The notes under the pieces were generated by a model. The model was not told the DNA's origin. It worked only from the letters and a program-made list of their open reading frames with translations, and made no database searches. DNA of 64,000 bases, from NCBI GenBank assembly GCA_914767715.1, contig OU612071.1, positions 16,986,948 through 17,050,947 on the forward strand, in the 5' to 3' direction. The stretch is from Membranipora membranacea (Eukaryota; Bryozoa; Gymnolaemata; Cheilostomatida; Membraniporidae). Position numbers and translations under genes: made by a program. Of this stretch, positions 10,201-51,787 are shown piece after piece. Position 1 is the first letter of the stretch. Each line of letters begins with the position of its first letter.

Positions 10201-13200
10201 TAGTCGGCAACAAAGTCTCAATGGAATTATGGATTCCTAGTTTTTAAATTTGTGTCAGCAGCAGGCTTCAAAGTTCCAACTTCATATGTGTTGCCGGTGG
10301 GTTGTTGAATGGAATGCCACTACAAGCTGCCCCGACAAAATGTACACACTAAACATAATCTGCATGCATTGTAACACCTTCAATATACCTGGTTGCGGCC
10401 ATTTACCTATAAGGGTGCTTTGAGTTAACAATATTTTGTATTTTTCAGGGTAGAGACTGGTTACTACGGGAATCTTGTACACAACTAATGGTGGAAAAGG
10501 TCACGTCTTTACTGACCAATGAGAATGCCTGGACAGCCTCAAATGCAGCCTTAGTTCTTGCCAGACTCACCATATCAGAGCGGGGGTGTGAGCTAATTCT
10601 CGATAATCATTTTAATAAGATCATTCTCTTATATGCTATATCAGCTTATATGCTCCCTTGGAACAGATGAAGCAGGTTTGTTCATACTTTCATATGATAG
10701 GCCTTGATCTAAAAGTGTATGATCCTAAATTGATGTCAAAAGTGTATTTTATCATCCACTCAAACATTGATTACCTTCAGGGTGATACTAATGTCAAAGA
10801 AAGGGGTGCTCAGGCAGTGTCAGCATGTTGTCCGTACATCTTGCGGGCAATCTTCAGCTCTCCACAACAATTCTGATAGCAAAGAAAAAGACATTGTCCC
10901 CTCCGTCAAGATTAGCAGTTATAGGGCCATCTCCGTACTGAGATGATAGAGCCTAGCAACCTAGCAACTCAAAGGTCATTTCATCGTGCTAGATTGTACC
11001 AAAGAGCTGAAAGTCAGGGGTTGAAATTTGAAATATTTATTTTGGATCTAGGACAGTAAAGTCGTTTTGCTTTTTTTTAACAATAGATGTTTGTAAGTTA
11101 ATTGTGGTTATGGGATAATTGTCTACTATTTTCTCAGTTAAAGCTTCATTCTTGTTGTGTCAGCCCATTCGAAACTGCCGAACATTATCACTGCGCCCCC
11201 AAATAAAGAGGGGCTTAGTGATAAGGCTCCCAACTACTAGCTTATATATATTGTCACAACCCCTAGCTATCTCATATTCTTTAAATGCCTAAATCCTCAA
11301 CTGTGTTGTGGCTATAAGCTTATTTGATCCCTTTCCCTGCCGTAAAAAGAAATCATACCCCCAAGTTTCAATACACACAAATATCTGCTTTTCACAAACC
11401 ATTATCTACCCAAAGCATTGTGGCTTATCCAAAGTACATTGTATCTAGATTAGTAGTACTTACACACACTGATCACGTGATATACTATTGCATGTATATC
11501 TCTGATTGATAGAGAGTGAATTAATTCACTTAGCTTGAGTGCAGCTGAAATTCAGTATTTAGGAGACGTATGGATGATTACCCAAACTTTTGGATATACA
11601 CTTGTCATTTTCTCATTCTTTGTTAAAATATTCTAATTTATATTCAGAAAATCTGATATCATCTTCTAACAGTTTTAGAAGAGCATTTAACACATGTTTT
11701 TGACAAGAAAAGTGACATCGAAACTGTGTGTTGCTAGCCTAAGCTCAGAAGAGAGAACTAAAAATGCAGAGCTAGGAAAATCTGTTTCGATCATGTCTGT
11801 TTGATAAAATTAAAGTTGTCCTCTTTTTTAGCCAAATGTAGGTGCTCAATATTTGCGACAGAAGCTCTATCGATCAGAGATACACATACTAATAGTGTAA
11901 TCTCGAAATCAGTGTGGTACTTACATATAGTTGTCTCTCTTAATCGGTTTTGTGCTCCATTTGGAGGCTTTTATTTTATTCCACCTACACCGGTCCACCC
12001 TTATCTATTTTGATGTTTACACTTAGCGTTGCACTCTCTGTCGAAATCATAGATGTAATGATAGTATCAAGCTTAGATTCAGGGACATAGTGTCTTCCAG
12101 TAATGATTTTTGTGGCCACTCAGTGAGGTCCACTCTGAGTCGTTTGCAAAGGAGGTCATATTATCATAGTTGATTTCAAAAAAATTCAGTCCGCTTTTTT
12201 TTACCCAACGTATCGATCACCTTTCAAGCTTCATTTGGTTACTTTTGTCCATTGTCTCATCTTATTATCCATGTAACAGGTAGAGGGATGAATGCAGCCT
12301 TCGCTATCGGTCGACTTTGTGACATAACAAAAGGAAGAACCATGCTACTAACTCTGCCTGAAGCTAATAAGATGGTCACTCATCTTGGTATGTATTACTT
12401 TAATTTCGAATCCAATCATATTTATTGTTCAATATAATTTAAACACTCTAACCTAACAGATCCCTCCTCGCTTATCAACGTGATTGCCACGTGCTCATTT
12501 TCAAATTTCTTGAAGTTCTCAAGCCATGGAACCACTGGCTGAGGCTATCATGTACCATATTAACAACGTTCCACAATATCCAGGAGTATCAGGCCAAACT
12601 AGTAAGTTATACTACTCCCTCATCCCAGCCTGGGAATTCCAGATAATTGCATTGTGGGATATGTTTGATTATTATAATCACTTTTCTTCTTTCTATATCG
12701 CACTAGTTAAACCTGCACTCTCTTCTCCTATGAAATACATGGTCTATGCATATTTATATTTCACAGCTAACATGTTATGTTCCGACGATAGCGGGTCTAG
12801 TAAGAACGCCTGCTTCGCTATCAGCTGTCTGGCTGCCAGCCCTGAGGGACATGAGAAGTTACTGAGTAACTCGATGTGTGACATGGTGATGAACACTCTG
12901 GCTACGCTCCTGTCTGCTGAGGACTTTGAGACTGGCTGGTTTGCTGCAATGTGAGTTATTTTAGTATCATCTTACTGATCCAGGCAAAGCTGCTGTAGTC
13001 CTAGGCTTCCACTGTACCTTTTTATCTACATAGGTAGGCAGGATAAGGGCCAGCATGTCTTTACAAGCCAACAAAGCTTTTCAAGACAGACAAGATATGG
13101 GCCAGCTCAGAAATGATCATTCATATGAGAAAGTACCACTGTACTCCCATTGTTATGGAAATGAAAACTGCTGCGAATTCAATCATGGTTGAACTAATGT

Positions 13201-36081: not shown

Positions 36082-37204
36082 TCAGTGACGGTTAGGGAAG
36101 AGATAGACAGTCCTGTCTCCTGTAAATGTACAGCTGATATCTGGTATCTGTCCCTTTGGTTTAGTTTTATCAACACACTTTTCTATACTCTTCAGTTCAA
36201 CCTGAGCTCGAACCTGGAAAAAAGTGAGATAGTTATTAGTACAGGTGAACGGTTACTAATATGGTTACTAGCTTTGATAGAACATTCGTTGGTTTGGTTG
36301 ACTTAGATCACACAAAATTGGCAAAATATTGATATTGATATAGACACAAACATAAGAGTGAGCCAAATAGTAGGTTTTTGACTGACTGAGGTCTTGTTTT
36401 ACGCGAGGTATGATTATAGTTGATCAACTTCTTTACTTTCAATAACTAATATTAGTGAGAGGTGGGACTCTGGAACCAGATGAACTTCCTTTGGTGATGC
36501 TCAACAGAACAACTACTATTACAGTAAAGTAAAATAAGCCCAAACCAAGCTGGACAAACATCATCAAATGAACAATTATTGTTACCATCTTTGGTCAGGA
36601 TGAGCCTTTCAGATAACTTACATATTCAGCCAGTTGCCTCAGGTCAGCACAATGCCCGTATCTACTGAACATAATCACTATAGCTCTGATGAGCCAGGAT
36701 CCATTTCTGTGATGTCTCATCGATCCAAATTCTAAGAATATTCAGAGAATTTATAAAATACAACATTTAAATATTAATGAGGACAGGCTTGTTACCTTAT
36801 CTGTATACTTTACTTGCGAAGGTGAAAAATGTTTTAATCTGGCTTGTTTTGTTGAAGGAAGCCAACAAATTATGGTTGTCCTAATGATTTCTTCGAAACA
36901 TATTTACAATCTATAATTGTTGGAATGTATCAGGGTACAATATAATACAATAGATGACAACAACTTGCAACTGATATCAATAACAATTTTACTTCAATTT
37001 ACTCCTCACCTGGTAGACTTGACTTCAGCACAAGAAAATGTGACCGTCTCAGAGACACGTTTTGATCCTCAGTTGCATCATAGTTTGGCAAGTTGCCAGC
37101 ATCCCTGAACTCATTATCAGAGGTGCTTAGCTTTATTTGCTTCTTTGGAATTGCAGGCTTCATTCTCGCCTCACCTCCGGCAGCGGAAATGTTATCCGTT
37201 AGTC
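36082..37204 (-). CDS. Exons 18-20: caspase linker, small subunit (p10) and stop
   Basis: Exon 18 (37204-37010) encodes the intersubunit linker (several Asp residues) and then RRSHFLVLKSSLPG, equivalent to the first p10 strand of caspases (x-x-DFL-x-x-YS-x-x-PG). Exon 19 (36731-36622) continues with FGSMRHHRNGSWLIRAI and MFSRYGH, matching the SWR...GSWFIQ...F-x-x-YGH core, with the S1 arginine at ~R1602. Exon 20 (36213-36082) ends with a KGQIP...YLFPNRH segment like the last caspase strand, then TGA at 36084-36082. The small subunit is complete, so this is not a truncated domain. Confidence 0.9.
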
Positions 37205-40200
37205 CTAAGAGATAATGAACCAAGTGAAAGAAAGACCTAGCATATAGGCTGTTGATACCATAGACTTAAAAATGAACCTAGAGAGGACACTGTATGGAGC
37301 ATTAGCAATCAGGCACGTTGTGGGCGACGTAAAGACAATTTTTGGCGACGTAACGATTTTTGAAAGAGTAGAAGCAATGATGCTATCATTGATTTACTGG
37401 CCAAAATCCGGGTTTTGTGTCGATAGCTTGATCAATTTTGATAGGATTTTGGGTTTGAAAATCACAATAGATTAAGCAGCTCGTCCTAAACAGTTTGATA
37501 CTAATTTATGGCAAAATATCTTTCAGAAATTTCAAATTCAAAATCCGATCAAAATTGATCGATTTACGAACAAACTCCTAGACTATGGACAGTAACACAA
37601 TGATAGCATCGATGCTTAAACAACTTCCAATGACGTTACTTCGCCCCACAATTAAGTACCTCGCTTCAGCTGTGTGTAGTGTCCTGTCTAGGTTAATTAT
37701 TAAGTCTATGGTTTATAGCCGCTTCGCAGAAACAATAATTTATCTGACTCATCCTCACCCATCTTGAAATCTTTTCAGTTATATAACTTCGAGTCTATGC
37801 CATACAGCATGTAACCAATACTGTTACACATACACACATGTGACGGTGAATATGAATCCTGTCAATTCAGATTTCTTCCTAATTCAGAAAGTTGCAAGAC
37901 TGACTCTAACTAGTAGTAACACAGCTTTTTTATATTTCATCAAAACTGTCGATGACCTACATGAGTAGTTATAGAATATGGTGAAAGTCAGAGAAAATCT
38001 GCAAAATGCATATCAATTGCTGTAAATGCGACTCACTCAGCTTTTTCAGACACAAACCTTTAGTACACTATCATCAGAAAAAAGGGACCAATACCTACCT
38101 ACCAATAGAGATATAATATCTTACCGTCAGAACATGACTGTACAACCACCAGTTTCGGCTTATGAGCCATTGCAGGAAACTTTGTACCACCAAGAAGACC
38201 ATAAATATCATGGAGGCGAACACTCCAATCGTCATGACCATGAATGAGACCGTCAGTACCATGTGACATGATGGCCAACACAAACATACCATAAATGTTA
38301 TGCTCTGGTCTCTTAGTCTCAGCTATGATGGTATCACAGATGTCCTAAAGCATACAAATCTTGATATTAGTAAAAGAATGCTGCTACCAACACTTCAACA
38401 AATTTTAATTTTAAATAAAAAATATAATAATATGTTAAATCCTCAACATTCATGTAATCAACAAATTACCTATAATTTACACATATTTATTAGGTCAACC
38501 TTGCTAATCTGAAGCAATCAATTCATCATTATTATTGATTGGTAGAAATGAAATGTGACAGTCATAAGTTTCAAACCATATTACGGATTATATAATCTAA
38601 GGTTTCACAGCGTGTTCATAAATGTTTCAAGAAAAGACCTCTTCTACTGATATTTATTTTTCCCTCATATCTATGTTTAGGATTACTTAGATATCTTCTT
38701 ACCTTGGCAGTATAATCTTTATGTTCGCCAACCACATCAAAGTGGAATCTCTCAAACATTATTTTGAGATTATTGAAGTCTTGCTCAGAGCCAGGACGTG
38801 GAGAGCTAGAATAAGCATTTGACACTATGAGTACTCTACCTCTGATTCCTTCACTCATCAGGTACACCTGTGTAAAACGGGAGAAGAATCTGACCTAAAT
38901 TTTACACAGTAGGCATCCAATACTTCTTCATACTAATAAAGACTAAAACGAAGTGATAACAGGCAGTATAGATAGCTCACATTCAACTCATGTCCAATAA
39001 TTAATATGTATGCGATGCTAGATTCGATAATGATTCTGTTATTAATATATTTTGGATAACACCTTGTCGTCATTAGGAAACAGGTGCTTGATATAATCAG
39101 GCGTTGCGTGAGGAACGAGATCGATGTTATCCAAAGCTGTGTCATCCATTAGAAGGTCGGGAGTACGGAATGGATCCGAACCATGTCCATCATATCCAGC
39201 CTGGTTAGACTGCTGTAACCCCAAATCTGTTGGGACTGCGATGAATCCTCCACCTACAAAAATTTATGCTATGCATAAATTTCTTAGGAGAAAGCAAATA
39301 TTTAGATTCTATAAACGGCGTATTTTCGGTTGGACCAAGATGTCAGTCGAATGCATAAAATTTAGGTATCTTATTGATGAAATTCACAGCCAATAGCTTT
39401 GTGTCTTCACACCGGAATAATCTGGGAGATTACAAACTGGTATAAAAATACTACCTGCTGTTTCTCCACTCAACAGAGACAAATGAGTTTCTCGGTAGCT
39501 TCTCAACTCAACAATTCTCTCAGGGGATAAGTTCTTGCCTGGAATGAATCAATAAGAGCTCCAATCAAGGAAGAAGAAAGGTTTACAACAAGATTTTCAG
39601 TTAGATCAATTTTCGCTTCATTAATCTTCCACAAACACTTTGCGCCTACAGATCTAATTTCACTCACATGGTTTCAGAAAAACTGCTGGAACATCGGCAC
39701 CTTCTACAAGACAGTGAAGTTTGTCATTCTCGTCGCATTCCATCTCATCAGAGAGCATCCATCTTGGGTTGTGAACCATATGAGGTCTCAATTGCTGGGT
39801 GAGCAGGCAGCTTCCGCAGCAAAACATGACAGCAGGGTGAGTGCCTTTCCACGTACTCTTCATGTAGGTAAGAAGGTTTTCTAAGCACATCCTCATCCTC
39901 CCCCATGATCGGCAGAGGTCATGTACAGAGGTTGACACTTGAAGAGTGACTCTTGCTTCATGGTAGTGGTGAATGAAATGTGTGGTTGATCCTCCATGGA
40001 AAATCTTTGCGCCATTCCTGGCCACTGTACATTTGTCATCAGGACTTCTTGATGAATCAAGTACTACTATGGAAAGCTCATGGTATATGTGATGTGGTAA
40101 TGGCAGCATGCTCTCAAAACTTATCACAACTCTCAGTTGAAATTCACCGTCAGATTTCCAACTCCTATCGTTGTATTCCGTGGTGAAGTATGGGACAACA

Positions 40201-43200
40201 TAGCATTGCAAACCATCCTGGATCGGTACAATCGGGCCATGAATCAGCCTAAACTTCTGCAAGATTCCGAGGGCTATATCTATTGGGAATGTTGAGTCTT
40301 CACCAATAACATGATTGAGGAGCTCTTCAGAGATCAACCCAGTTTGCTGGTAATGGAAGACATGATTCTCAAATTCTTTCTTTGTTGAAATCATCCTCAC
40401 AAACGAATTTGGGACATATACATACTCTTGTATGCGTTCTTCCCATTGCTTTGTGGCATCATGATTGAAGAGTAGAGCTATGAGACTCCTCAATGATATG
40501 AAATCATGGAAAATGGGAAACTGAGGGCAGTCTTCCAGCCATAATAATCTGCCACATTTGTGCATTAACCTTAGCACAATTTTCAGTGACGGTATATTTT
40601 GCTGATAAAGCGACTCAAGAGTCTGAAGATCTAGGTACGAGGCTTCAAATGACTCAATATCAGCAATCATGGCTAACCATAAAGGGGGCAGAAACTGGAT
40701 GTGACCACAGGAGATCTCATCTATGCACTGAATAATGCCATTGAACTGATCAAAGGCTGGATCATCTCCAACCACAAATATATTTGATCGTTGGAAAAGT
40801 TGTCTGTTTTCATCAGAGAAAACTCTAATCGCGGGTCCATGTTTCTCCTCTGCTGTGCGGTCTCTGATAGTAATCCAGGTTTGTCTACGTAGGAGCTCAA
40901 CTGTGCGAATGAATACTTCCATCTGAAAACTTACATCAGTTTCGGATAGCTTATCTTTGTGGGTTAGCACCGGCAGGGGTGGGCCCAAATCAGGGTTAGC
41001 TAGGTAAAAGTGAGCTATCCAGTCAAAGCACAGTTGCTTTACCGCTTCACGGGGATCTTGTGTCGCTAATGTTTTGAACTCATGAAGGTTAACTATTATG
41101 ACTGGAATGAAGTCCGCTTTCAGTGCGATTTGATATGTAGGGTGGTAAACTCCATTTCCACCTAGATCTATGATGCGTATTTCCTTTACAGAGTCCATTT
41201 TAAGGTTCTTATGATTGAACACAGTTGTGGTTTCATCACTTGGGTCACCTTTTATCCGCTTTGTTAGGTATCGCTTTTCTTTCCTTAGAGACTCTATGAC
41301 ACTTGTTTTACCTGAGTATGACTTTCCGATCACACCTACGGTTAGGGATGGTAGCTTTTCAAACCATTCAGCTTCACTATCGAGAAAGAATAACTTAATC
41401 GCTTGCAATCCCTGCTCAGCGATAGCAGAGGGTGGACAATTCAAGTTCTCACACCCATCGAGTTTTAGGTGAGTGAGAGCTTGATGTCCGGGAACAGGCA
41501 ACACCAGTCTTTTCAGATGCTTATTGTGGGCCAAGTTTATGCTGGATAAACTATTTTGGGAAAGCCATGACATGGTTGAAAACTCAGTGAAACGATTTCG
41601 GTCGAGCATCAGTTCCTTCAGGTTGACAAGCAGTGAGAGCCTGCAATCAGTGAATATTGAGTCCTATTTACCCATTTTAACCATTAACACCATTGTGATA
41701 TTGTAAATTGTAAGTGAGCTTTGAAATTACTTTGCGTTCATTATAGTAATGTTGAAACGGCACACAACCCATTCAATAGCTTTACTCTTGCAATATTTGA
41801 GGGTACAGCAATATTAACAAGGAACATTTAAATATTAAAAAATGGAAATCCCGTATTCAGACTTAACAGGCTTCTCTCAACTGCAATCTTTGCGATCAGG
41901 GAATAACTAACTTGCAGGCGAGGACCAAATATCAATTAACTTATTGATTTCTGACATATTCTCAGTGTATAGCTAAAATACATGGAAAATGCTGACTCCA
42001 AATTGTTCAGTGATTAAGTAGATTAGGTTTACAAGGTTTTGCTTGGGATGTCAGTACTATATTTTGAGATGAGGGATCTTTGAAATAACTATGAATACAT
42101 ACTGTTGAGGCACTCTAGAAAGCTGATTGCTGCTCAAATCAATCGTCTCCAAGTTCTCTAGATTAGCTATCCTATAAAAGATAACAAATACAGTGTAAGC
42201 TGGTTAATTAGAATCCTGTTAATTCGAAAATATCTGTTAATTCAGACACCTGACTGTGTGTGTGTGTTCGTGTTTGTGTGCTCAATGAACTACAGTGCAC
42301 TTCTCTTATTTTAGACTTTATATTTCAGCACTCAGAATTCAAACAAAGATAATTGGTCCCTTCAGCCAAATGTCGATTCATTCTTATTTAATTTGATTCA
42401 AACTCTGCATAATTAGGACACAATTTGATGGTCCCTAGAGATTTGAATTGAGTGGAGTGTACATAATTGTATTTGCAGAATAATTATATCTGCATATGCA
42501 AAATTATATAACATAAAAAATATATTATATATGCAGCATATTATATTTACAGAATAATAAGGTCAAAGAATGAAGGATGTGGAAGACAAGTTTTGAAGAG
42601 AACCTTCTTATGCACCAACCTGTCTGTGAATATTTGCAGCTTGTTACCTGCCATTATGAGCGTTCTCAACTGTTTAAGGTCACCAATACTACAACGGCAA
42701 GACGAGACAAAATTCACAAAAAAAGCAACGATAGACAATAGAGAAACATGAGTCAGCTGTTAGTGAAAAATATTTTTAATCCTTACCTATTCTGATTCAT
42801 ACTAGTTACTGTAATGCTTCCGTGTAACTATTTCTATCATTCAATACATGACAAAAGCTCTATTTATTACTGTGTATTGTGTTGGTCATGGATTGTTTGT
42901 TCTCGATATAACAGATATTTAGCATATGCATTGACAAATCACACAACACTAGACAGCACACAGTATCACATAAAAATTATGCAGCAAAATCAAGTGATAG
43001 AAAACTCAATTGATATTTTGAACATGATGTAACTCACAGGTGAAAGTCTAACATTTGGAGAAAACAATGTAGGTCAACAGTTAGCTGCTGTTATTTTTCA
43101 TTCTTTGAATGATGCATTACTGTTCAATAAAATGTACATTTTGGGACAAAATGGTTTTTTTTCGGTTGAGACTTTATTGATCTTGCCTTGTACATTGGTA

Positions 43201-46200
43201 CAAGGCTTTTCTATTTTGAATTCACTGTGGTCCAGTGAAGTGAGGGTTGAGCTTCTATTACATTAGGGAGAGTCAAACTTGGGAATTAGGTTTGAAATAA
43301 TGCTATACCGTGGTGCTTTGCATAATGCTTGGAAGCTTCATTGAGTGAGCAGTGAGCTGATCTGACAATCAATTCATTGTTGTGTGCATCCTACAAGAAG
43401 GTTACATCAGGACTTCATCCTCTATACCACGGAGCAATAATGGGCAAACAGAATGGTCGCTGGAAAGAAAATGAAAAGTTTTACCGCCTCCCTCCCCATT
43501 CTTTGATATAGCGCCTTTTCAGTTTCTCAGGAACTACTTGTCCCATCTCAAAAATTCCTTCACTGACACGTTGCTAGTAGTCTGACTTATGTTTAATATC
43601 GCAATTTTTTTTCAAACCGCATGTTCCTAACTTGATTAATTGTACATTAACTAAAATACATTGAAAACATATAGGCAAACATGGGCAAATGATGCAGTAA
43701 ATTACGTTATGCAAAAGCATGATGAAAATCTAAGCAGTATTACATGCAAATCACATTGTGTACAACAATGGATCACCTTTTTTAGGTGATTGTTTAGCAT
43801 GGAAAGAGAAATGTTTATGGTAATAACTTCCCTACTACTGAATTTATCATCAAACGCCACGATCAAAACCTCGGAAATATTCTCTAGTTTAATGGAAGCA
43901 AGTGTGTATCATATGTTGTTTAACCTATTTTCAATTTTTTTGCAGGAAAGAAGTGCATGTTTTGGACCAAATAAAGCTGGTTTAGCCACAAAAATCCAAA
44001 TATCTCAAGTTGTAAAGCCATAATCAACAATCGCTTTGATCAAAGCCTAGACAATCCCCTGTTATTCATCATGCTGACAACAAATTTGACTGACGTCTTT
44101 CTGAATTTCTGATTTTTGGCTGGAGAATTTTGACCTAAATAAGTTAAAATTTGGGTTATTATCTGATACAGTTGTGACAACAAGGATCTGTAAACTGTCA
44201 AGATTATTGATTGAAGTGACAGTACAAGACCAAAATGGTATAATGAATCGGAAACTCTAGTTTTTGCATTATTGGGGTTGCATGTAATCAGGGGTCAGAA
44301 ATGGCCCTAACACCATTGCAAAAATCAATTTCAAGTCTCGCAGACAGGAGGCCTAAAATCATAAAGTTTCACCAAAATGTCACTCCTCCAGTTAGTGCCA
44401 TGCCTCCTCTATATGGTGAAAGCATAAACTAATCAAATACCTCAAAAACAAGGCACAGAGGGCACAATTTGAAAAGGGCACTTTTTGTCCCAAAATGAAC
44501 TTCCAGAGGTCACTGCAACTCAACGTCAAACATTTGGGAGGTTTAAACTGTGAAAATAACTATTAAACATGATCACCAATACAATATTAAAAAGTTTTAA
44601 AAAGCGATATATCACGTTAATTTATAATTTTTCACAAAAACTTGATAATAACATCCAAACTAGATTGAAAAACATTCATAATATGTTTTGTAGAACGGTG
44701 TTGTGACTGCAGATTCACTATGACAAGTATGACCAGCTTCAAACAGACAAACCAGTCTACTAAAAAAGGAGAGTATAATAGCTCAAACAGAATCCAAAGC
44801 TCTGTAAAACCATTCTAAGAATTTTTGACAATAACACCTTGTCTATTACATCTTTTTTCTCCCTATCCATCTCTGGATCGCAGTTTTTCCATTTCTAGCA
44901 GTCGTGACCGCGATAGTCGGCCATTTATTTCTTTCTTTATTGATGTTTAATGCCTTACAAACTTTTTTATATTTTATTGTAATTAAACCGAAATAAAATG
45001 TCTTGAAGGTAACAAACCATTTAGCTGTAAATTGAGTTGACGGAGGAAAAAAAGATATTACTCATTAATTCATTAAACTCCAATAATACACAATGATAGA
45101 TCAACTATTAGGGCATGATGTAACTAGAGTGGATAACATACCCCAAACAATAACTCATATCAACATGGAATGCTCAGTAACTTAGTATACAGACATGCTC
45201 CAACCAATCTTTGGCCTGAATTCTAGACTATATAATTATCTCCCCAGCCTCAGTCATACCATAATGCTCAATTCTTCGTAAATAAAGTATCTAAAATCCA
45301 CAGGCAAATTAGTATGTAAACTCACCATTCAGGCACACTGAGTAGGTCATTGTTGGACAGATCCAAGAACTCCAACTGCTTCACATCACTCAGTCTTTAA
45401 ACAGAACATAATACAAATCAAATCAGCGGATGTGAGATTGCTATGGTAAAATAGAGGTATTGTGAAATAAAGGCCAAAATCTATCATAAATGATAAATTT
45501 TGGCTTTTATTTCACCATGAGGCTTAAATGTGAGAGCAACTGTTGCAATCGCACTACCCCTGAATTGATAGCATTCAGAAGAGAGGTAATGGCATCTAGT
45601 TGTTTCCTAAACGTTCAGAATTTGGAGTCTGCCATCTTGCTATGTTATGGTATAACAGGGTATCACAAATGTGTGATACATTACTTTCTCCATAACTGTG
45701 ACCATTGATGCATAAAGATTATAATTATACATACAGATGGCTTGATGAAAATGTCACATACAGTAACTGATACTAAAGAAGAACAATTGCACACAGCTGG
45801 TCACAACTGCTTACTGTTCTGAGCATACTGGATTCTGTTGACAATGAAATGACTATGACAACATGGTAGAAAAAGCTTGATAGTGGTATTATGCACTTGC
45901 CAAATGGACCCTCACAAACACCTAAGCTATTCAGAGGGCAGTGAAAGCTGCTCGAAAAGTTGTCTCTGCCTTTAATAATCTTTCAAGGGTTAAAGTGACA
46001 AGAGATTCAACTCCAAATATGTATGATTAACACTAAGAGCATGCAGTTGAAATAGTTAATTGAATGGCAGCTCTGGCTCCGTACTGAATCTGAACAACTT
46101 TCAAATAAAAGAAAATTAAAGCCCCCAGTAAATGAATTCGCAGTTCGCATAAGTTCTGCTTAAGACTTACCGTGGAGAGATGATTTTCATATTGCAATTC

Positions 46201-49200
46201 ATCAGCTTCAATGTCTGGAGCTGTGGCATTGCAGCAAATATATGACCTTGTCTACAACATATCCAATTACAATCAAGTAATAACAGTCAGTGAGTGTTTG
46301 CCTGATTAGAAATATATATCTGAAACAAAATTTTTTTAGAGTCAACATGGAGATATTTAGAACTTTCGAATTGATAGGCTTCAATTCATGTTCCCATACA
46401 CAGTCGGTCACTGCGAGTACTAAACTACTGGGCTAGTCTTGGTCTATCCTAAGAGAGGGTTGATTGGCAACTGACGAAGTTTTTGTCAGCAAATCCAAAT
46501 GAGCAACAAAATTCAGGAAGAAAAGAAACATATCGCTCTGGATAAAAAGTTCCAAAATACTATACCTAACTAAAATTTGTATCCTGCAACGCTAGAGCTA
46601 TGCTTGATTGGCAGAATTGAGTGGTAAGACAGCAGGTAAATGTAGTGAATCTGCAGTGGCTTAACCAAATTGATAAAAGATCCTAAGGCAGTCAGTGACA
46701 GCATGATGATGCTTAGTGTAACTACAGGAATGCACCCTGCAGTAGTGATAGGTATTGACCAAGTTATTACATTAAATATTGTGTTGATGAGCTATTGAGT
46801 GTAATACCAATAGTGTAACAATTTTTCAAGGTAGATAATATTTCTTGGATGATCGAGGGGTAAAGTGGAACCAAACTAATCCCTCGTCATTAACAGTCCT
46901 AACTAGAGTGTACACTGGTATGTATACCAGTGCAAACACTGGTTTATAAACTAGTACTTATTCATGTGTATACAGCAGGGTATACTCCGCTGTCACAAAC
47001 CTAACCCAAGTCAGTGTTACTGTTACACCAGGGTAGGATTATACCAGTCTCCTCTTACATCATGCCCATTATGAATACCTATTTCATACTTACATCTCTG
47101 GGGATACTTGATTCACACAGTGAGACATAACCAACAACGTAATGCTGTGAAAATAACTCAGAGTGGCAGCATCCAATCTGTAAGAAAGATCAGGAGTATT
47201 TTCTCAGATAATTGCAAGAATTTTCGATAACTTTGGTGACAAGCAATGATAAACAATGGAGGAGGGCTGAGATATTGTGTCTCATGCCCGTCCAAGAAAT
47301 ACAGTAAGTCAATATTTTTTAGCGCTGGAATGCCGGAAACTTGTTTGTGAATTAATAAAAAAGCTCGAAATGGTTTGCAGCAGCCAATAAGATGATTGGT
47401 GATTTTGATTACTGAGCTTGTGGTTGAAATTTTGTCACTAACCCTTGAAAGGATATTAAATATAGCTTGGTAACATTCTGCAGGAGCTCAGCTACCTCTA
47501 CTGGCAATCTGTAAATGGTTTATTAAAATCGTTGATTAAAATCAGATGTCATATCACTTGCCACATCCCGAAGCATGGGCAGCGAAATTTAGTTGCTTTA
47601 AGGGCTAAGCCGCAATGTCTGCGCCAGTTTGACCTTCATCACTTGCGTGTTGGACAGGCACTCTAACCAGCTGAGCCACCTCCTACTCCTAAGATGAGAT
47701 ACTTTCTCCGAGAAATACAAGAATACAAGAATGATATAATATGAAAGAGGGTTGAGAAATTGTGTCTCGTCCCCGTCCGAATAACACAGTCTGTCAATAT
47801 TTTTTCTGTGCTTAAATGGCGGAAGTTTGTTCGTTAACTAATAAAAAATGATTGGTATGGTTTGCAGCAGGTAATAAATTGATTGGATTGATTATTGAGC
47901 TAGAAGTTAAAACTTTGCCTCTTACCCTTGAAAGTATATCAAGTATAGCTGGGAAACATCCTGCATGTGTTCAGCTACCTCTACCGGCAATGTAACATGC
48001 ACTCTCATATTGGTAATGGAGGCTGTGTCTAGCTTATCTATGACATAATTGGGTGTGTACTGCTCCACATCATTCTTGATCAATGAAATATCTGGTGCAG
48101 ATTCTCCTTCCTCCTTGAGCTTTACCCACATCGCTGATGGGTCAAATTCGGATCAGAGTAAAAAGTGAACATAAAATGCTCGTGCTCAAAGTATTGTTTT
48201 ACTTCATATGAGTTAAACTGATATTTTGGTATTTATTGATTTTGAAGAGCAACTGGAAGTTTTCAAGATGTATAAATTGAACATGGTCAGTTTATTCCAG
48301 ACTTTCATATACTTGGACCTAATCGTTAATGAGAGCTTGTATAAAGGAGTTTGGATTTGCACATACAGTGGCTAAAATTTAATTTGTGAATATTTGCATT
48401 CATTAGGGTTTCCTCAGCGTAAAGCCACCGAAATACACCAGGCCAAGTGAATCAGGGTTTCCAGTGAATTCACTGCATCGACCCTTCTATAACTTACACT
48501 TTACTGATTTAGGGTCCAACAGAGACAGTAATGAATTTGTTATGGATGAACCGAAAGTATGGTTGTAAAAAAAAAGAATTCCTGACTACAAGATTAGGCC
48601 AACATGTCATATTATTCAAAACACGTTAAATCATATGAATGTGTTACCTTGAGTAAGCTGAGTTTGAGCCTCCGATGGCAGACTAGGCGACCACAGCCCA
48701 ATGCGAGCCGCAACGATCAATCTGCGGAGTGAAGCTACATCAATACCATCCTCAGTGTAATATACATGGTCGAAGAACAGTTTGGATGTCCTACACGGAT
48801 GTGTCGTGAACAGGACCTGAAAAAAGAGTTTCCCTTTAAATTGCAATAACTTGACTGATGAATTGATTTTGTCCCCATTAACTAAAACTATCATAAATTA
48901 TGGTGTACCCATTACCCATTCCTCCCCTCTCAGTATCATATGATCTGAATTTTATGTCAATGACCACATGGCCTAAAACTATTGAGGTGAAATTTCACTA
49001 TCATAGAAAATTGAGGTTTTGAAAGGAAGGTATAGTGTTTAATTTCAGGTTTTCAACATATCATGAGAATTGAAAGGTCTTAGCAAATAGGTTGATGCAT
49101 GTATGATAATTACTTGCTGGAAACAAAGGAACCTTCTAACAGGCCCTCACTAGTAAGATTGTTTACTTCAGATCTTATATTTAGTACAAATTCCATATTC

Positions 49201-51787
49201 CCTCCAACTTACCTTTTTTGAAGTTCCATTCTGAAAAATATGGGCATTTTTCTCTATGTACTTTACAGACCGCGCTGAGTTACACACCATGAGTTGTAGG
49301 GCCCAGCTGTTATCACCACCTGCTCCTTTAAGTTGCTTGAGTGCACTAGCACCATCAGATATCCTACATCTGATCAGTGTGAAGTTGGCGACAATCAGAG
49401 CCGAAACAACTGCATGATATTCATACTGTGAGAATCTGTCATCGACGAAAAGAATTCCGCACAGTTTATGCTGAACGTTAGAAACAGGTGTAGTGTTGAG
49501 GCTCGCAAACACCTCTTTGTTACCTACGCATGCTGAGATCAATTTCAAAATAGCACTTTGAACGATGACATCTCCAGGTCTGCCTAATGATGCAATATTA
49601 GCGAGTAGATCATAGAATGGTTTGTATTCTATCAGGCCTTTTGCATATTCTTGACTGACAAGTCCTAACTTGAAGTTGAGATATTGTCTGATCAATGAGT
49701 GATTTTCATTCTGTGACATCCATTGCTTCATAACGGCACTTGTTGACTCAATATTATTCATGACAGTTAGAGAGCTATCAAGCTCAAACAGATATGCAAA
49801 CTGCAGAAGCGACATTGTTCCATTGAGGGACTGGATGAATGGTACTGTCAGCACATCTTCAAGGAACCTCTCATTACTTAGCAAGTGTCTTTCAAATTGT
49901 TCAATGTATTGTGGCAATATCGTTCTATGTTTGTGTTGACCGATATCTGCAATTAATGACTGAAAATTAACTACAATAATTTTCTTTGTGAAATCATTCA
50001 ATCAAAATTATAAGGCGATGTGGACAATGAAATAAAAAGGGAAATATTTATATGTATCAAATAAGCATTCAAATAAAAATTCGAAAATTCCTTGTAGCCA
50101 GCATACTGCCATTGCCACATGAGGCCCGGCAGCGGCATTGGTTACCTGTTAGCCGGGGAAACCCTTGATAAATGTGGCTATATATACTGTGTGGGGCCGA
50201 GGTGATTATTTTGCAGAATTTGTTGAGTTCATCACAAAGCGGGTGCTGTACATTAAAATATAATTGTAGTTATTTTTTTTATCACTCCAGTACATCTACA
50301 CCAGATAATAGGAACAAAAATATAGCCCTCTCGCATTGCAGACAAGCAGATAACTGTCAAAAGCACTACCAGCAACTGGAGCAAGTGTAATCAAAGACCA
50401 TGCTTTCACTTCTTGTGTGAGGGGAGTAGGAGGTGGCTCAGTTGGTTAGAGCGCCAGTCATCAGTGATCAAGTGTTAAATTTTAGTGACCAAATACATGA
50501 GAATTTCCTAAAATTTGGTCAACAAAACAAGCATAAATAATTTGGGTATTTGGATGCTTATTTAAACCAAATATCAAAATCATTCCCCTGTTCAAACGCT
50601 GGATCAATGTGGAATTTGATAATTATCAAAGCCCGGTTTTGGCTATGCTGCGCATGCTGAAGGCATCCCAAATGTAGAGAGGGTAACTCTTAATATAGGA
50701 TCAAATTTCGTTCAGAAAGATGTCCGTACATACCTTCAATACGTAACAGCGTGTCAGTCAATGTGCGGTAAAAGTCACTTTGCACGTCTAAATTTGAAAA
50801 AAAAAGAGAATATTAAAAAGTAAACTACGTATGTGCAGCTGTCTAAGCTCGGATTGGCACAAATTTTAAAAGAGGGAGACATACATTTCGGTAACAACTT
50901 TATCGTTTAGAGAAAAATTTAAAACAGGGATGCCTACAATACAGACCACTCATCAAGCCTCTACTGAGATCAGCGCAAAATTTAATTTATCAAAGCCTTC
51001 AGGAGACTAAATTGTAAAGCTTTTTCCCGCAAACTGCATCTTGATCAATAATTCAGGTTGTTCGCATACCTCTTAATTGATTATCATCATCATCATCCCA
51101 GCTGACAAGAAGACTGTCCCGTAGAACCATCCGCATGACAAACCAGTTTACGCACAAAAACAGACATACTGCTCCATCTGTAAGGACTAGCCCTGATATC
51201 AGCTGCCTGTTGTATATTACCGTTGATATATCTGGTTCCGTAGAGAGATAAATCTTATCATGGAGATGGGGAAGTCCGACTACAAAAACATCAATTTTAT
51301 TTTTAAGGTTATGTAGTCTTATGCATTTATGAAAATAAAATCAGTTGCTACAACACATGTGAGTCACAGTCCCTGTTTTGTCTTGAAGGTGGAGAGGCTG
51401 CGTTGACAGAGATCCATTTTTTTGCATTTGGGAGTTCAAACAGTGCAGTTTAATATAAATCTTCTGCATCGCGGAAACTTTTCTTCTATATTTTGATAAA
51501 TTAAAAGAGATTATATTAAGGGATTAAAGATTAGTCTAAATGTGACATTCATACATTGGCTACACATTGTTTAAGCTTTCTATCTTAGCTTTTATAAATG
51601 GTGTTTGCAAATTTTGAGTCACTATAGAGCGGAAATAAAAATGTTAATGTTAAAATTACATACACCCTCTACAGATTTCCTTCTTCAGTTCTCCAATAGT
51701 AGATACTGGTGACATCTGTAGATTACAGAGAGTGCTGCCGATACGACTCTTTACACATACTGGTATCAGCACACCCTCTTCTGCCAT
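36082..51787 (-). CDS. UBL-ARM-LRR-Roc-COR-caspase protein (Roco family with C-terminal caspase), 20 coding exons
   Basis: Exons, 5' to 3' on the minus strand: 51787-51664, 51279-51070, 50787-50734, 49970-49213, 48816-48648, 48133-47926, 47508-47443, 47177-47094, 46251-46171, 45394-45326, 42688-42620, 42171-42103, 41640-39668, 39538-39455, 39253-39063, 38867-38703, 38344-38125, 37204-37010, 36731-36622, 36213-36082. Every junction is GT-AG, phases agree throughout, and the sum is 5031 nt, giving 1676 residues and a TGA stop. Approximate order: ubiquitin-like 1-110, armadillo-like 130-440, leucine-rich repeats 440-740, Roc GTPase 755-935, COR about 950-1200, linker 1310-1403, caspase p20 1404-1532, p10 about 1580-1676. 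There is no signal peptide or membrane segment, so it is probably cytosolic. Roco proteins are GTPase switches that usually carry kinase or death domains; here the effector is a caspase. Inferred role: ligand- or GTP-controlled activation of an attached death protease. The start ATG begins the ubiquitin-like strand; untranslated exons were not traced. Confidence 0.88.
37258..37710. mobile_element. Inverted-terminus element, family C, inside the caspase gene
   Basis: CCATAGACTTAAAAATGAAC at the left is mirrored by GTTAATTATTAAGTCTATGG at the right (arms ~33 nt, CCTAGA..GGACAC inside). It lies in the intron between exons 17 and 18, which separate the catalytic cysteine from p10. A solo end is at about 28712-28743. 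Confidence 0.75.
38125..38867 (-). CDS. Exons 16-17: caspase large subunit (p20)
   Basis: Exon 16 (38867-38703) begins with VYLMSEGIRGRVLIVSNAY, the start of the caspase fold (Y-x-M...RG-x-x-LI-x-N). It then has PRPGSEQDFNNLKIMFERF, carrying the S1-pocket arginine (~R1427) and the GS-x-x-D helix. Exon 17 (38344-38125) carries the catalytic histidine in MSHGTDG (~H1486, codon 38263-38261) and the catalytic cysteine in VVVQSCSD (~C1529, codon 38134-38132). Spacing between the two (43 residues) fits the family. The usual QACxG pentapeptide is changed to QSCSD followed by Gly, while both catalytic residues are kept. This is an animal-type caspase, not a metacaspase, because a p10 domain with the second S1 arginine follows. 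Confidence 0.92.
39063..39538 (-). CDS. Exons 14-15: linker between COR and caspase
   Basis: Exon 14 (39538-39455) and exon 15 (39253-39063) encode about 92 residues joining COR to the protease. The end of exon 15 is rich in Asp (LLMDDTALDNIDLVPHATPD), offering several Asp-X bonds where a caspase could release itself from the Roco part. The phases (1-1, then 1-0) fit both neighbours. No domain is recognised here. That these sites are cut is inference. Confidence 0.7.
39668..41640 (-). CDS. Exon 13: last LRRs, Roc GTPase and COR domain
   Basis: A single 1973-nt exon (protein residues ~654-1311) bounded by a phase-2 acceptor and a GTGAGT donor. It opens with two or three more LRRs (LKELMLDRNRFTEF; ALTHLKLDGCENL). 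The Roc domain follows: G1 P-loop GKSYSGKT at ~759-766, Thr-rich switch DETTTV, G3 motif DLGG at ~812-815, and G4 THKD at ~870-873 (the Roc family uses THxD rather than NKxD). The ~270 residues after Roc have the hydrophobic pattern and position of a COR domain, which dimerises in Roco proteins. The G3 motif has Gly where the family usually has Gly-Arg or Gly-Gln next to the switch, which may slow hydrolysis. No kinase domain is present. Confidence 0.85.
42103..48133 (-). CDS. Exons 6-12: leucine-rich repeats, mostly one per exon
   Basis: Exons 6 (48133-47926), 7 (47508-47443, 66 nt), 8 (47177-47094, 84 nt), 9 (46251-46171, 81 nt), 10 (45394-45326), 11 (42688-42620) and 12 (42171-42103), the last three 69 nt each. 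Exon 6 ends in phase 2, and exons 7 to 12 all begin and end in phase 2, so each can be skipped or duplicated without breaking the frame. Repeats of 22-28 residues show the LxxLxLxxN/CxL pattern, clearest in exon 10 (LEFLDLSNNDLLSVPEW) and exon 12 (LETIDLSSNQLSRVPQ). Exons 6 and 7 share an almost identical LPVEVAE motif. Further repeats continue into the large exon 13. LRRs in Roco proteins lie immediately before Roc, as here. Confidence 0.85.
42189..42464. mobile_element. Inverted-terminus element, family D, in the intron after Roco exon 11
   Basis: ACAGTGTAAGCTGGTTAATT at the left and TTGAATTGAGTGGAGTGTAC at the right. Shares CCTGTTAATTCG/CTGTTAATTCAG and GGTCCC with 30349-30837. Includes a GT-rich microsatellite. 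Confidence 0.55.
42700..45320. other. Large intron between LRR exons 10 and 11
   Basis: 2.6 kb with no further LRR exon that I can find. AT-rich, with no clear inverted-repeat element. Confidence 0.5.
47240..48000. repeat. Tandem duplication carrying an LRR exon
   Basis: The stretch 47260-47515 repeats 47740-48000 (shared GTCAATATTTTTT, GGTTTGCAGCAG, CCCTTGAAAG and the LPVEVAE exon part) with many substitutions. A SINE sits between the copies. It explains the similarity of Roco exons 6 and 7. Confidence 0.75.
47560..47690 (-). mobile_element. tRNA-derived SINE (same family) inside the LRR intron
   Basis: On the minus strand it begins AGGAGTAGGAGGTGGCTCAG, matching the head at 34224, with GTTAGAGTGCCTG following. 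It lies between Roco exons 6 and 7. Confidence 0.6.
48648..50787 (-). CDS. Exons 3-5: armadillo-like helical region
   Basis: Exon 3 (50787-50734) is a short linker. Exon 4 (49970-49213, 758 nt) and exon 5 (48816-48648) encode about 310 residues of continuous amphipathic helices with Leu/Ala/Ile spacing, for example LLANIASLGRPGDVIVQSAI and SALIVANFTLIR. This is typical of ARM/HEAT-like folds, although individual repeats are degenerate. The acceptor of exon 4 is set by phase. An AG nearer the apparent open frame would shift into a stop, while the TAG at 49973-49971 joins the codons for VNFQSLIADIG in frame. LRRK2-type Roco proteins also have an ARM region before their leucine-rich repeats. Which known ARM subfamily this belongs to cannot be told by eye. 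Confidence 0.65.
50421..50490 (+). mobile_element. SINE head fragment (same family)
   Basis: GGGAGTAGGAGGTGGCTCAG with GTTGGTTAGAGCGCC, then unrelated sequence. 5' end only, in the intron before Roco exon 4. Confidence 0.5.
51070..51787 (-). CDS. Exons 1-2: N-terminal ubiquitin-like domain
   Basis: Exon 1 (51787-51664) starts at the ATG at 51787-51785 and leaves one base. Its donor is GTATGT after codons for ...EICRG. Exon 2 (51279-51070) completes the codon and runs to an Asp-rich stretch (WDDDDDNQ). The first ~35 residues follow a ubiquitin beta-hairpin/alpha-helix pattern: hydrophobic strand, a Gly-containing turn, a second strand, then the helix STIGELKKEI, which matches the ubiquitin pattern of a Thr-Ile-x-x-Leu/Val-Lys helix. 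A later NRQLISGLVLTDGAVCLFL segment matches the end of a ubiquitin fold. In ELMO and some formins, a Ras-binding ubiquitin-like domain precedes armadillo repeats in the same way, so GTPase binding is a plausible but unproven role. Confidence 0.7.

Follow-up and report, generated by a model that had tools for sequence, protein, structure and literature searches.

Caspases are normally recruited through adaptor domains (CARD, DED, death). To our knowledge, the effector of the animal Roco proteins LRRK1, LRRK2, DAPK1 and MFHAS1 is a kinase, a death domain or none; DAPK1 and MFHAS1 share the LRR-Roc-COR core. LRRK1 and LRRK2 have this core and its fold in common with the bryozoan protein described here, but their effector is not a protease. 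CED-3, caspase-9 and caspase-3 share with it a full C14 domain, but in the bryozoan protein no CARD or DED was recognized, and the position of the prodomain is taken by a GTPase-LRR protein. The closest analogue of the bryozoan family is bacterial, as far as the available part of the source goes. Bacterial LRR-Roc-COR (AP-GTPase) proteins carry at least 24 different C-terminal effectors, the caspase included, and are presented there as counter-invader systems (Kaur et al. 2021, PMC8195603). They have the same order, i.e., fast-evolving LRRs, Roc, COR and a C-terminal effector, and are also multi-paralog, with 11 per genome in the example named in that part of the text (PMC8195603). The bacterial proteins, however, have 24 or more alternative effectors, whereas the bryozoan ones form an intron-rich animal family in which every one of the 66 Roc exons examined is followed by caspase sequence.

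Two other groups are related in their design. TIR-Roco proteins of Aplysia (PMC9334734) and sea anemones (PMC5094078) combine, in the accessible portions of both papers, an animal Roc/COR scaffold (with LRRs in sea anemones) and an immune signaling domain, which is a TIR and not a caspase. The sponge Dysidea avara has 126 bona fide NLRs, and CASc, UBQ and COR are among the domains in the legend of Figure 2 of that paper; a Roco-caspase is not described in the portion of the text available (PMC12909245). NLRs are likewise expanded LRR receptors with a nucleotide switch, but they are built on NACHT and the bryozoan proteins on Roc. A preliminary description of the DNA analyzed here knew of no such protein described in animals. 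Since bacterial LRR-Roc-COR-caspase proteins are already in print (PMC8195603, available part), the claim of novelty has to be narrowed: no description of an animal LRR-Roc-COR-caspase was found in the open-access literature searched, with queries that did not address bryozoan immunity directly, and none is given in the available portions of PMC7159879, PMC2246300 and PMC13326412.

The locus and its gene model

We analyzed a stretch of 64,000 nucleotides (the window) at C7:16986948-17050947 of an assembly of the cheilostome bryozoan Membranipora membranacea, with 339,339,785 bases in 18 contigs, which was also the genome searched; the published assembly is given as 21 scaffolds in the part of the paper available, and a polyA RNA-seq run, ERR6464929, accompanies it (PMC10290214). 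On the minus strand, between 51787 and 36082, which is 17,023,029-17,038,734 on chromosome 7, one continuous spliced frame of 19 exons (4941 nt, 1646 aa) runs from an ATG at 51787 to a TGA at 36082. The terminal stop is the single one, 18 of 18 introns are GT-AG, and the phases match throughout. The frame encodes, in this order, LRRs, a Roc GTPase, a COR, a linker and a full-length caspase domain, which bears out the central claim of the preliminary description, i.e., that repeats, GTPase and caspase are joined in one reading frame. Its GT-AG introns and phases also stood, but its counts (20 exons, 5031 nt, 1676 residues) differ from ours, a twentieth exon being unconfirmed. The motifs that it had listed, the P-loop GKSYSGKT, THKD and the caspase His, Cys and p10 core, could all be read directly, together with DLGG; in the caspase they read MSHG, QSCSD and, for the p10 core, SMRHHRNGSW. 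The final model, given below, was checked by hand. An initial exon scan at strict thresholds had yielded two candidates only, and automatic chaining with higher intron penalties gave 17 and 15 exons, both superseded by the 19-exon model. A 27-exon chain, obtained with a low intron penalty, was rejected because its tiny exons were overfitted. The donor of exon 13 is ambiguous (39455 or 39413), and the frame is open either way.

Exon 1, 51664..51787, minus strand: start codon and first half of a possible ubiquitin-like fold; open in four of the five tandem copies
Exon 2, 51070..51279, minus strand: second half of the possible ubiquitin-like fold; fast-evolving (dN/dS sum 1.85)
Exon 3, 50734..50787, minus strand: small; splice sites kept in four of five copies
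Exon 4, 49213..49946, minus strand: N-terminal domain (labeled armadillo earlier); hypervariable over its first 66 codons
Exon 5, 48648..48816, minus strand: present in four copies, whose lengths differ here by multiples of three
Exon 6, 47926..48133, minus strand: similar, by eye, to the pre-LRR exon of two distant paralogs
Exon 7, 47094..47177, minus strand: beginning of the LRR region (19-exon model)
Exon 8, 46171..46251, minus strand: LRR (19-exon model, Pfam)
Exon 9, 45326..45394, minus strand: LRR, 69 nt, phase 2 (19-exon model, Pfam)
Exon 10, 42620..42688, minus strand: LRR, 69 nt, phase 2 (19-exon model, Pfam)
Exon 11, 42103..42171, minus strand: LRR, 69 nt, phase 2 (19-exon model, Pfam)
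Exon 12, 39668..41640, minus strand: last LRRs, Roc GTPase (GKSYSGKT, DLGG, THKD) and COR (profiles, fold)
Exon 13, 39455..39538, minus strand: linker between COR and caspase, 28 residues; alternative donor at 39413
Exon 14, 39063..39253, minus strand: linker; 9-nt in-frame deletion in copy c16854
Exon 15, 38703..38867, minus strand: first part of the caspase p20 (VYLM..RGR.LI; R in SPRPGSE) (Pfam, CED-3 alignment)
Exon 16, 38125..38344, minus strand: part of the caspase p20 that holds the His (MSHG) and the Cys (QSCSD) (Pfam, CED-3 alignment)
Exon 17, 37010..37204, minus strand: p20-p10 linker and first p10 strand (Pfam, 19-exon model)
Exon 18, 36622..36731, minus strand: p10 core SMRHHRNGSW (Pfam, CED-3 alignment)
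Exon 19, 36082..36213, minus strand: end of p10 and stop codon (Pfam, 19-exon model)

The window gave no match to Rfam, and ARAGORN called no tRNA in it. By eye, two tRNA-like copies (GTAGGAGGTGGCTCAG..GGTTAGAG) lie on opposite strands in the introns at 50424-50460 and 47640-47690 and look like a tRNA-derived SINE, and the intron after exon 6 contains a second copy of sequence surrounding the 3' end of that exon (47430-47500 and 47900-47990). An open frame of 146 aa is located at 12514-12954 on the plus strand.

Identity of the domains

The N-terminus has weak similarities only. Residues 1-87 matched solely ubiquitin-like families in Pfam, with E values of 0.081 (ubiquitin, PF00240) and 0.24, and eight PDB entries weakly (E 0.17-1.4), five of which, going by name or known domain content, are ubiquitin-like or bear a UBL. 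The ubiquitin-like start proposed in the preliminary description thus remains a possible one, weakly supported by these values. The armadillo repeats proposed behind it found no support; exon 4 has no Pfam match, and its predicted structure is unusable at a pLDDT of 43. The protein of exon 4 has four matches in the genome, all within a tandem array on chromosome 7 to which the window gene belongs, and a tblastn search with the N-terminal exons over ca. 10 kb upstream of two distant paralogs gave nothing better than an E value of 0.58. The resemblance of exon 6 to the pre-LRR exons of these paralogs was seen by eye only, and tblastn gave none there. Being present in four of five chromosome 7 copies and not found in the ca. 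10 kb upstream of the two paralogs, exon 4 is less certainly joined to the LRR part. Exons 1-5 could be a separate upstream gene, with the receptor proper beginning near exon 6 or 7, and the confinement of the exon 4 matches to the array, their absence from those ca. 10 kb and an exon 2 that is out of frame in one copy would all fit. However, the frame is continuous with matching phases, and in each of the four copies that carry exons 1 and 4-6 these are open and their splice sites conserved, so that we regard a separate N-terminal gene as unlikely and retain a single gene starting at exon 1.

The LRR-Roc-COR part is far better defined. The spliced LRR exons matched LRR_8 in Pfam (5.2e-20). 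The Roc exon of the window alone gave a weak match to Pfam Roc (E 0.032); with NCBIfam it matched two generic GTPase models, both below the cut-off, and the caspase matched none. The family becomes clear from an alignment of 14 sequences (the window, twelve distant paralogs and one database protein), in which the columns holding the key residues G, K, D, T and H of GKSYSGKT, DLGG and THKD are invariant. At E 0.01, Pfam recognized Roc in 13 of the 14 (the window sequence being the miss), COR-A in nine and COR-B in one, with the window listed for neither COR model; the scan of these sequences yielded other GTPase families besides Roc. Searched as a profile, the 14 members scored 3.7e-18 against a Chlorobaculum Roco protein and about 2e-12 to 6e-12 against LRRK1 and LRRK2; these matches mostly cover LRR and Roc, and LRR proteins head the list. 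The predicted structure goes further. The AlphaFold2 model of exon 12 (pLDDT 77.7, pTM 0.75) was compared to the PDB with Foldseek, and the 23 best matches were all Roco proteins, including matches to COR alone; those that bear on the COR are 3dpt COR (8.8e-8), 3dpu (8e-15) and 6hlu (6.5e-18). LRRK1, the Chlorobaculum Roco and LRRK2 are among the folds matched, and whole-length TM-scores are moderate (0.45-0.56 for the four best). The LRR-Roc-COR identity of the window protein is thus confirmed by the predicted fold. Both hallmarks of a Roco protein are present, i.e., a Roc with P-loop, switch and NKxD-like motifs and a COR directly after it. Pfam found neither NACHT nor NB-ARC in the window sequence, and NACHT in one of the 14 members at 2e-4. 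Since these domains define NLRs, the window protein, judged from its domain content, is NLR-like in its putative working only and not a member of that group.

The C-terminal 273 residues match PF00656 at 2.7e-34 from position 1 to position 229 of its 233, and thus form a full caspase domain, whose best PDB match is CED-3 (4e-16). SHG, QSC, the R of SPRPGSE and the R of SMRHH align with CED-3, and we take the His and Cys to be catalytic and the Arg of p20 and p10 to form the substrate pocket. With Pfam, no CARD, DED or death domain was recognized in the N-terminus, the LRR part, the Roc exon, linker exon 14 or the caspase. Most caspases carry the pentapeptide QACxG. The window sequence reads QSCSD instead, and because of this departure its activity is uncertain; the caspase may be weak or inactive. 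Among the five tandem copies, QSCSD is found in three (window included), QSCSG in one and QACSG in one, while at other loci QAC was present in 21 of the 21 canonical Cys exons read. This bias would fit a window copy acting as a catalytically weak or dead regulator of active Roco-caspases, by analogy with cFLIP, which regulates caspase-8. We consider such a role rather improbable, since the Cys, His and Arg positions aligned to CED-3 have all been kept and purifying selection acts on the caspase (dN/dS 0.41, see below), which would be compatible with regulation too.

Outside the genome, the searches gave few relatives. Phages, plasmids, viral contigs and contigs of prokaryote genomes gave zero matches each. 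Bacterial Roco proteins match the bryozoan Roc profile, and the only close Roc-COR relatives among the protein matches listed were P0001 (29% identity) and P0002 (40-41%), both unfused open frames on short contigs. PF00656 was found in none of the protein matches listed, with ca. 8000 candidates scored per search and two of the searches covering proteins up to about 1150 to 1170 aa only, so that fused relatives may exist elsewhere.

A genome-wide family and the pairing of Roc and caspase

The preliminary description had overlooked that the gene belongs to a large family. The exon 12 protein has at least 66 matches in the genome (66 of 240 candidates scored), of which 61 are distant (28-34% identical) and spread over chromosomes 1, 2, 3, 5, 8, 9, 10 and 11; one (C3:20245736) has two in-frame stops. 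Each of the 66 scored Roc exons is followed by caspase sequence on its own strand. For 44 of them, this is a Pfam caspase match 0-12 kb downstream, taken from a comparison set of 150 out of at least 168 matches (140 of 515 candidates scored); 42 are within 2.2 kb, and the other two, at 5.6 and 9.9 kb, are the least sure. The remaining 22, including the window, two of its tandem copies, L017, L018 and L025, were read directly. None of the 150 listed matches lies within 12 kb upstream of any of the 66 Roc exons or on the opposite strand. In L025, the first p20 exon is all that was found of the caspase within 7 kb downstream of Roc, and because of the long duplicated ORF blocks there, the caspase may be decayed or interrupted. 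Six loci of chromosome 3 (L035, L036, L038, L044, L045 and L046) have behind Roc a second, divergent class of caspase-like sequence. SHG is retained in each of them, and QAC was seen wherever the next exon was read, i.e., in three. From these sequence comparisons, the window gene is one member of a large Roco-caspase family of M. membranacea. A Pfam Roc search of the genome (at least 148 matches; 150 of 372 candidates scored) adds, outside the 66, 31 Roc matches in open frames of at least 350 aa. Nine of them have a caspase within 8 kb downstream and 22 do not, among the 16 nearby caspase matches compared out of the 150 listed.

Pairing at this scale could in principle arise from the joint duplication of two neighboring genes, one for LRR-Roc-COR and the other for a caspase. 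The family-wide evidence is indeed one of pairing, the distant paralogs having been read unspliced, and from DNA a cryptic internal start is possible. The COR exon was compared across 13 loci (the window and 12 distant ones). There is no stop common to all in the frame of exon 12, the stops falling 33 to 85 residues past the last P.W motif. In contrast, the COR exon of 12 of the 13 meets a phase-1 donor in the homologous position, behind ..PC or ..PS, which argues against two adjacent genes; the exception is L023, judged on its two best-scoring donors. A stop stands directly behind this donor (PCE, stop) in three loci, the window, L024 and L025, so there the exon can also be read as ending, a point in favor of two genes. 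On the other hand, order and strand are identical in 66 of 66 scored pairs, and both linker exons keep an open frame that is in phase with their neighbors on either side, and show constraint (dN/dS 0.51). Altogether, two separate genes seem very improbable to us, and a single gene spanning both parts is the reading followed below.

The divergence of the two parts also speaks for one gene. Over 12 loci (L025 excluded), Roc and caspase distances are correlated (r 0.59, p 0.001), and without the near-duplicate L018 r is 0.34 (p 0.038). L021 and L023 depart from this trend: they differ by 33% in Roc and by 54% in the caspase, which does not track the Roc distance and counts against a single gene. 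This mismatch suggests a swap of caspase modules between paralogs, which we consider likely.

Many caspases of this genome stand apart from the 66 Roc exons. Of the 150 listed matches, 106 are untied to them, on chromosomes 1, 5, 8 and 10, often in tandem-looking runs (e.g., C1 33.6-36.7 Mb and C5 4.1-7.6 Mb), and some belong to additional Roc exons. Incidentally, in COX1 on C18, TGA stands for Trp, AGR for Ser, ATA for Met and AAA for Lys, judged from conserved COX1 positions. This points to a bilaterian with the invertebrate mitochondrial code, and a sponge origin, considered at first because of metagenome hits and the D. avara paper, was rejected on the AGR and ATA readings.

Selection along the tandem array and a proposed role

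The array on chromosome 7 consists of five tandem copies, the other four being 95-98% identical to the window in the exon 12 protein. These four share the splice sites from exon 12 to the stop and have all exons there open, and three of them keep the upstream exons too, a conservation beyond chance; in five of five, linker exons 13 and 14 have an open frame whose phases fit at either end. Among these copies, we estimated dN/dS by Nei-Gojobori counts, with exon 10 counted four bases beyond its donor both here and in the comparison of the copies. Copy c16950 was excluded upstream of 41.7 kb, where the alignment fails. In the N-terminal region (exons 1 and 2 plus the first 66 codons of exon 4; four copies, six pairs), dN/dS reached 1.70, a value to be read with a 66-codon boundary that was picked after viewing the exon 4 alignment; exons 1 and 2 alone gave 1.43 and 1.85. 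The ratio is lower in the remainder of the protein, with 0.63 in the rest of exon 4, 0.73 in exons 5 to 11, 0.67 in the LRR-Roc-COR exon (five copies, ten pairs), 0.51 in the linker and 0.41 in the caspase. The pairs share history and are not independent. Fisher tests of the N-terminal region, applied to four of the six pairs, gave p 0.001 for the window against c16900 (25 nonsynonymous and 0 synonymous changes) and 0.058, 0.014 and 0.045 for the other three. It should be noted that the data of c16800 are doubtful here: in this copy, exon 2 (51279-51070 in the window) has 208 nt and is out of frame, with stops in all frames in the alignment, and the first 19 exon 4 residues are unlike those of the others. 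Two of the four pairs tested do without c16800, with a significant result in each. For the caspase, the four pairs had dN lower than dS (p 0.010, 0.029, 0.12 and 0.004). By these counts, the N-terminus is apparently under diversifying selection and the caspase is under constraint.

Because the frame, the Roco fold, the full caspase, the family-wide pairing and this gradient of selection from N-terminus to caspase all point the same way, we think it probable that the family consists of single-chain receptors (N-terminal sensor, LRRs, Roc, COR, linker and caspase) that would work as NLR-like death-protease sensors. At rest, the protein would be inactive in the cytosol. Its N-terminal and LRR part would sense a ligand that is microbial or non-self, or a host protein that is damaged, and GDP/GTP exchange in Roc would alter the dimerization mediated by COR. 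Two caspase domains would in this way be brought together for proximity activation, with cleavage in cis or in trans, and the released caspase would leave the cell killed or inflamed. The whole chain would act as an NLR or apoptosome combined with its own caspase and no adaptor; that it "needs no adaptor" and is "apoptosome-like", as the preliminary description put it, we infer by analogy with the biology of Roco proteins and caspases.

With less assurance, we lean slightly toward a broader proposal, a bryozoan repertoire of at least 66 genes, each of which would unite a sensor, a GTPase switch and an executioner caspase in one molecule, with an N-terminus diversified by selection and swapped caspase modules. 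This would be an animal counterpart of the bacterial LRR-Roc-COR-caspase defense, serving immunity or colony allorecognition without adaptors. Bryozoans regress and rebuild their polypides, and the family might serve the biology of the colony rather than immunity, either in allorecognition when colonies meet or in the programmed polypide breakdown of the life cycle. The hypervariable N-terminus, the tandem expansion and the colonial host would suit such a function, which we find doubtful, given that bacterial LRR-Roc-COR-effector proteins read, in the available part of the source, as systems against invaders (PMC8195603).

If the immune receptor proposed above is correct, recognition in an animal would be coupled to a caspase within one chain, through a GTPase and not a STAND ATPase, and in a family on the scale of NLR repertoires. 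It would make testable whether a Roc-COR dimer alone can be a platform for caspase activation, with a bearing on the function of the Roc-COR module in LRRK2 and DAPK1, as well as on animal death machinery in relation to bacterial conflict systems of the same domain order. It would also open the molecular immunity of bryozoans to study.

One further observation concerns the copy with the failing upstream alignment, c16950 (L015-L016). Upstream of its Roc exon there are open frames of 650 aa and then 244 aa, and the tail of the second recurs in L029, which marks it as a repeated element, probably transposon-like.
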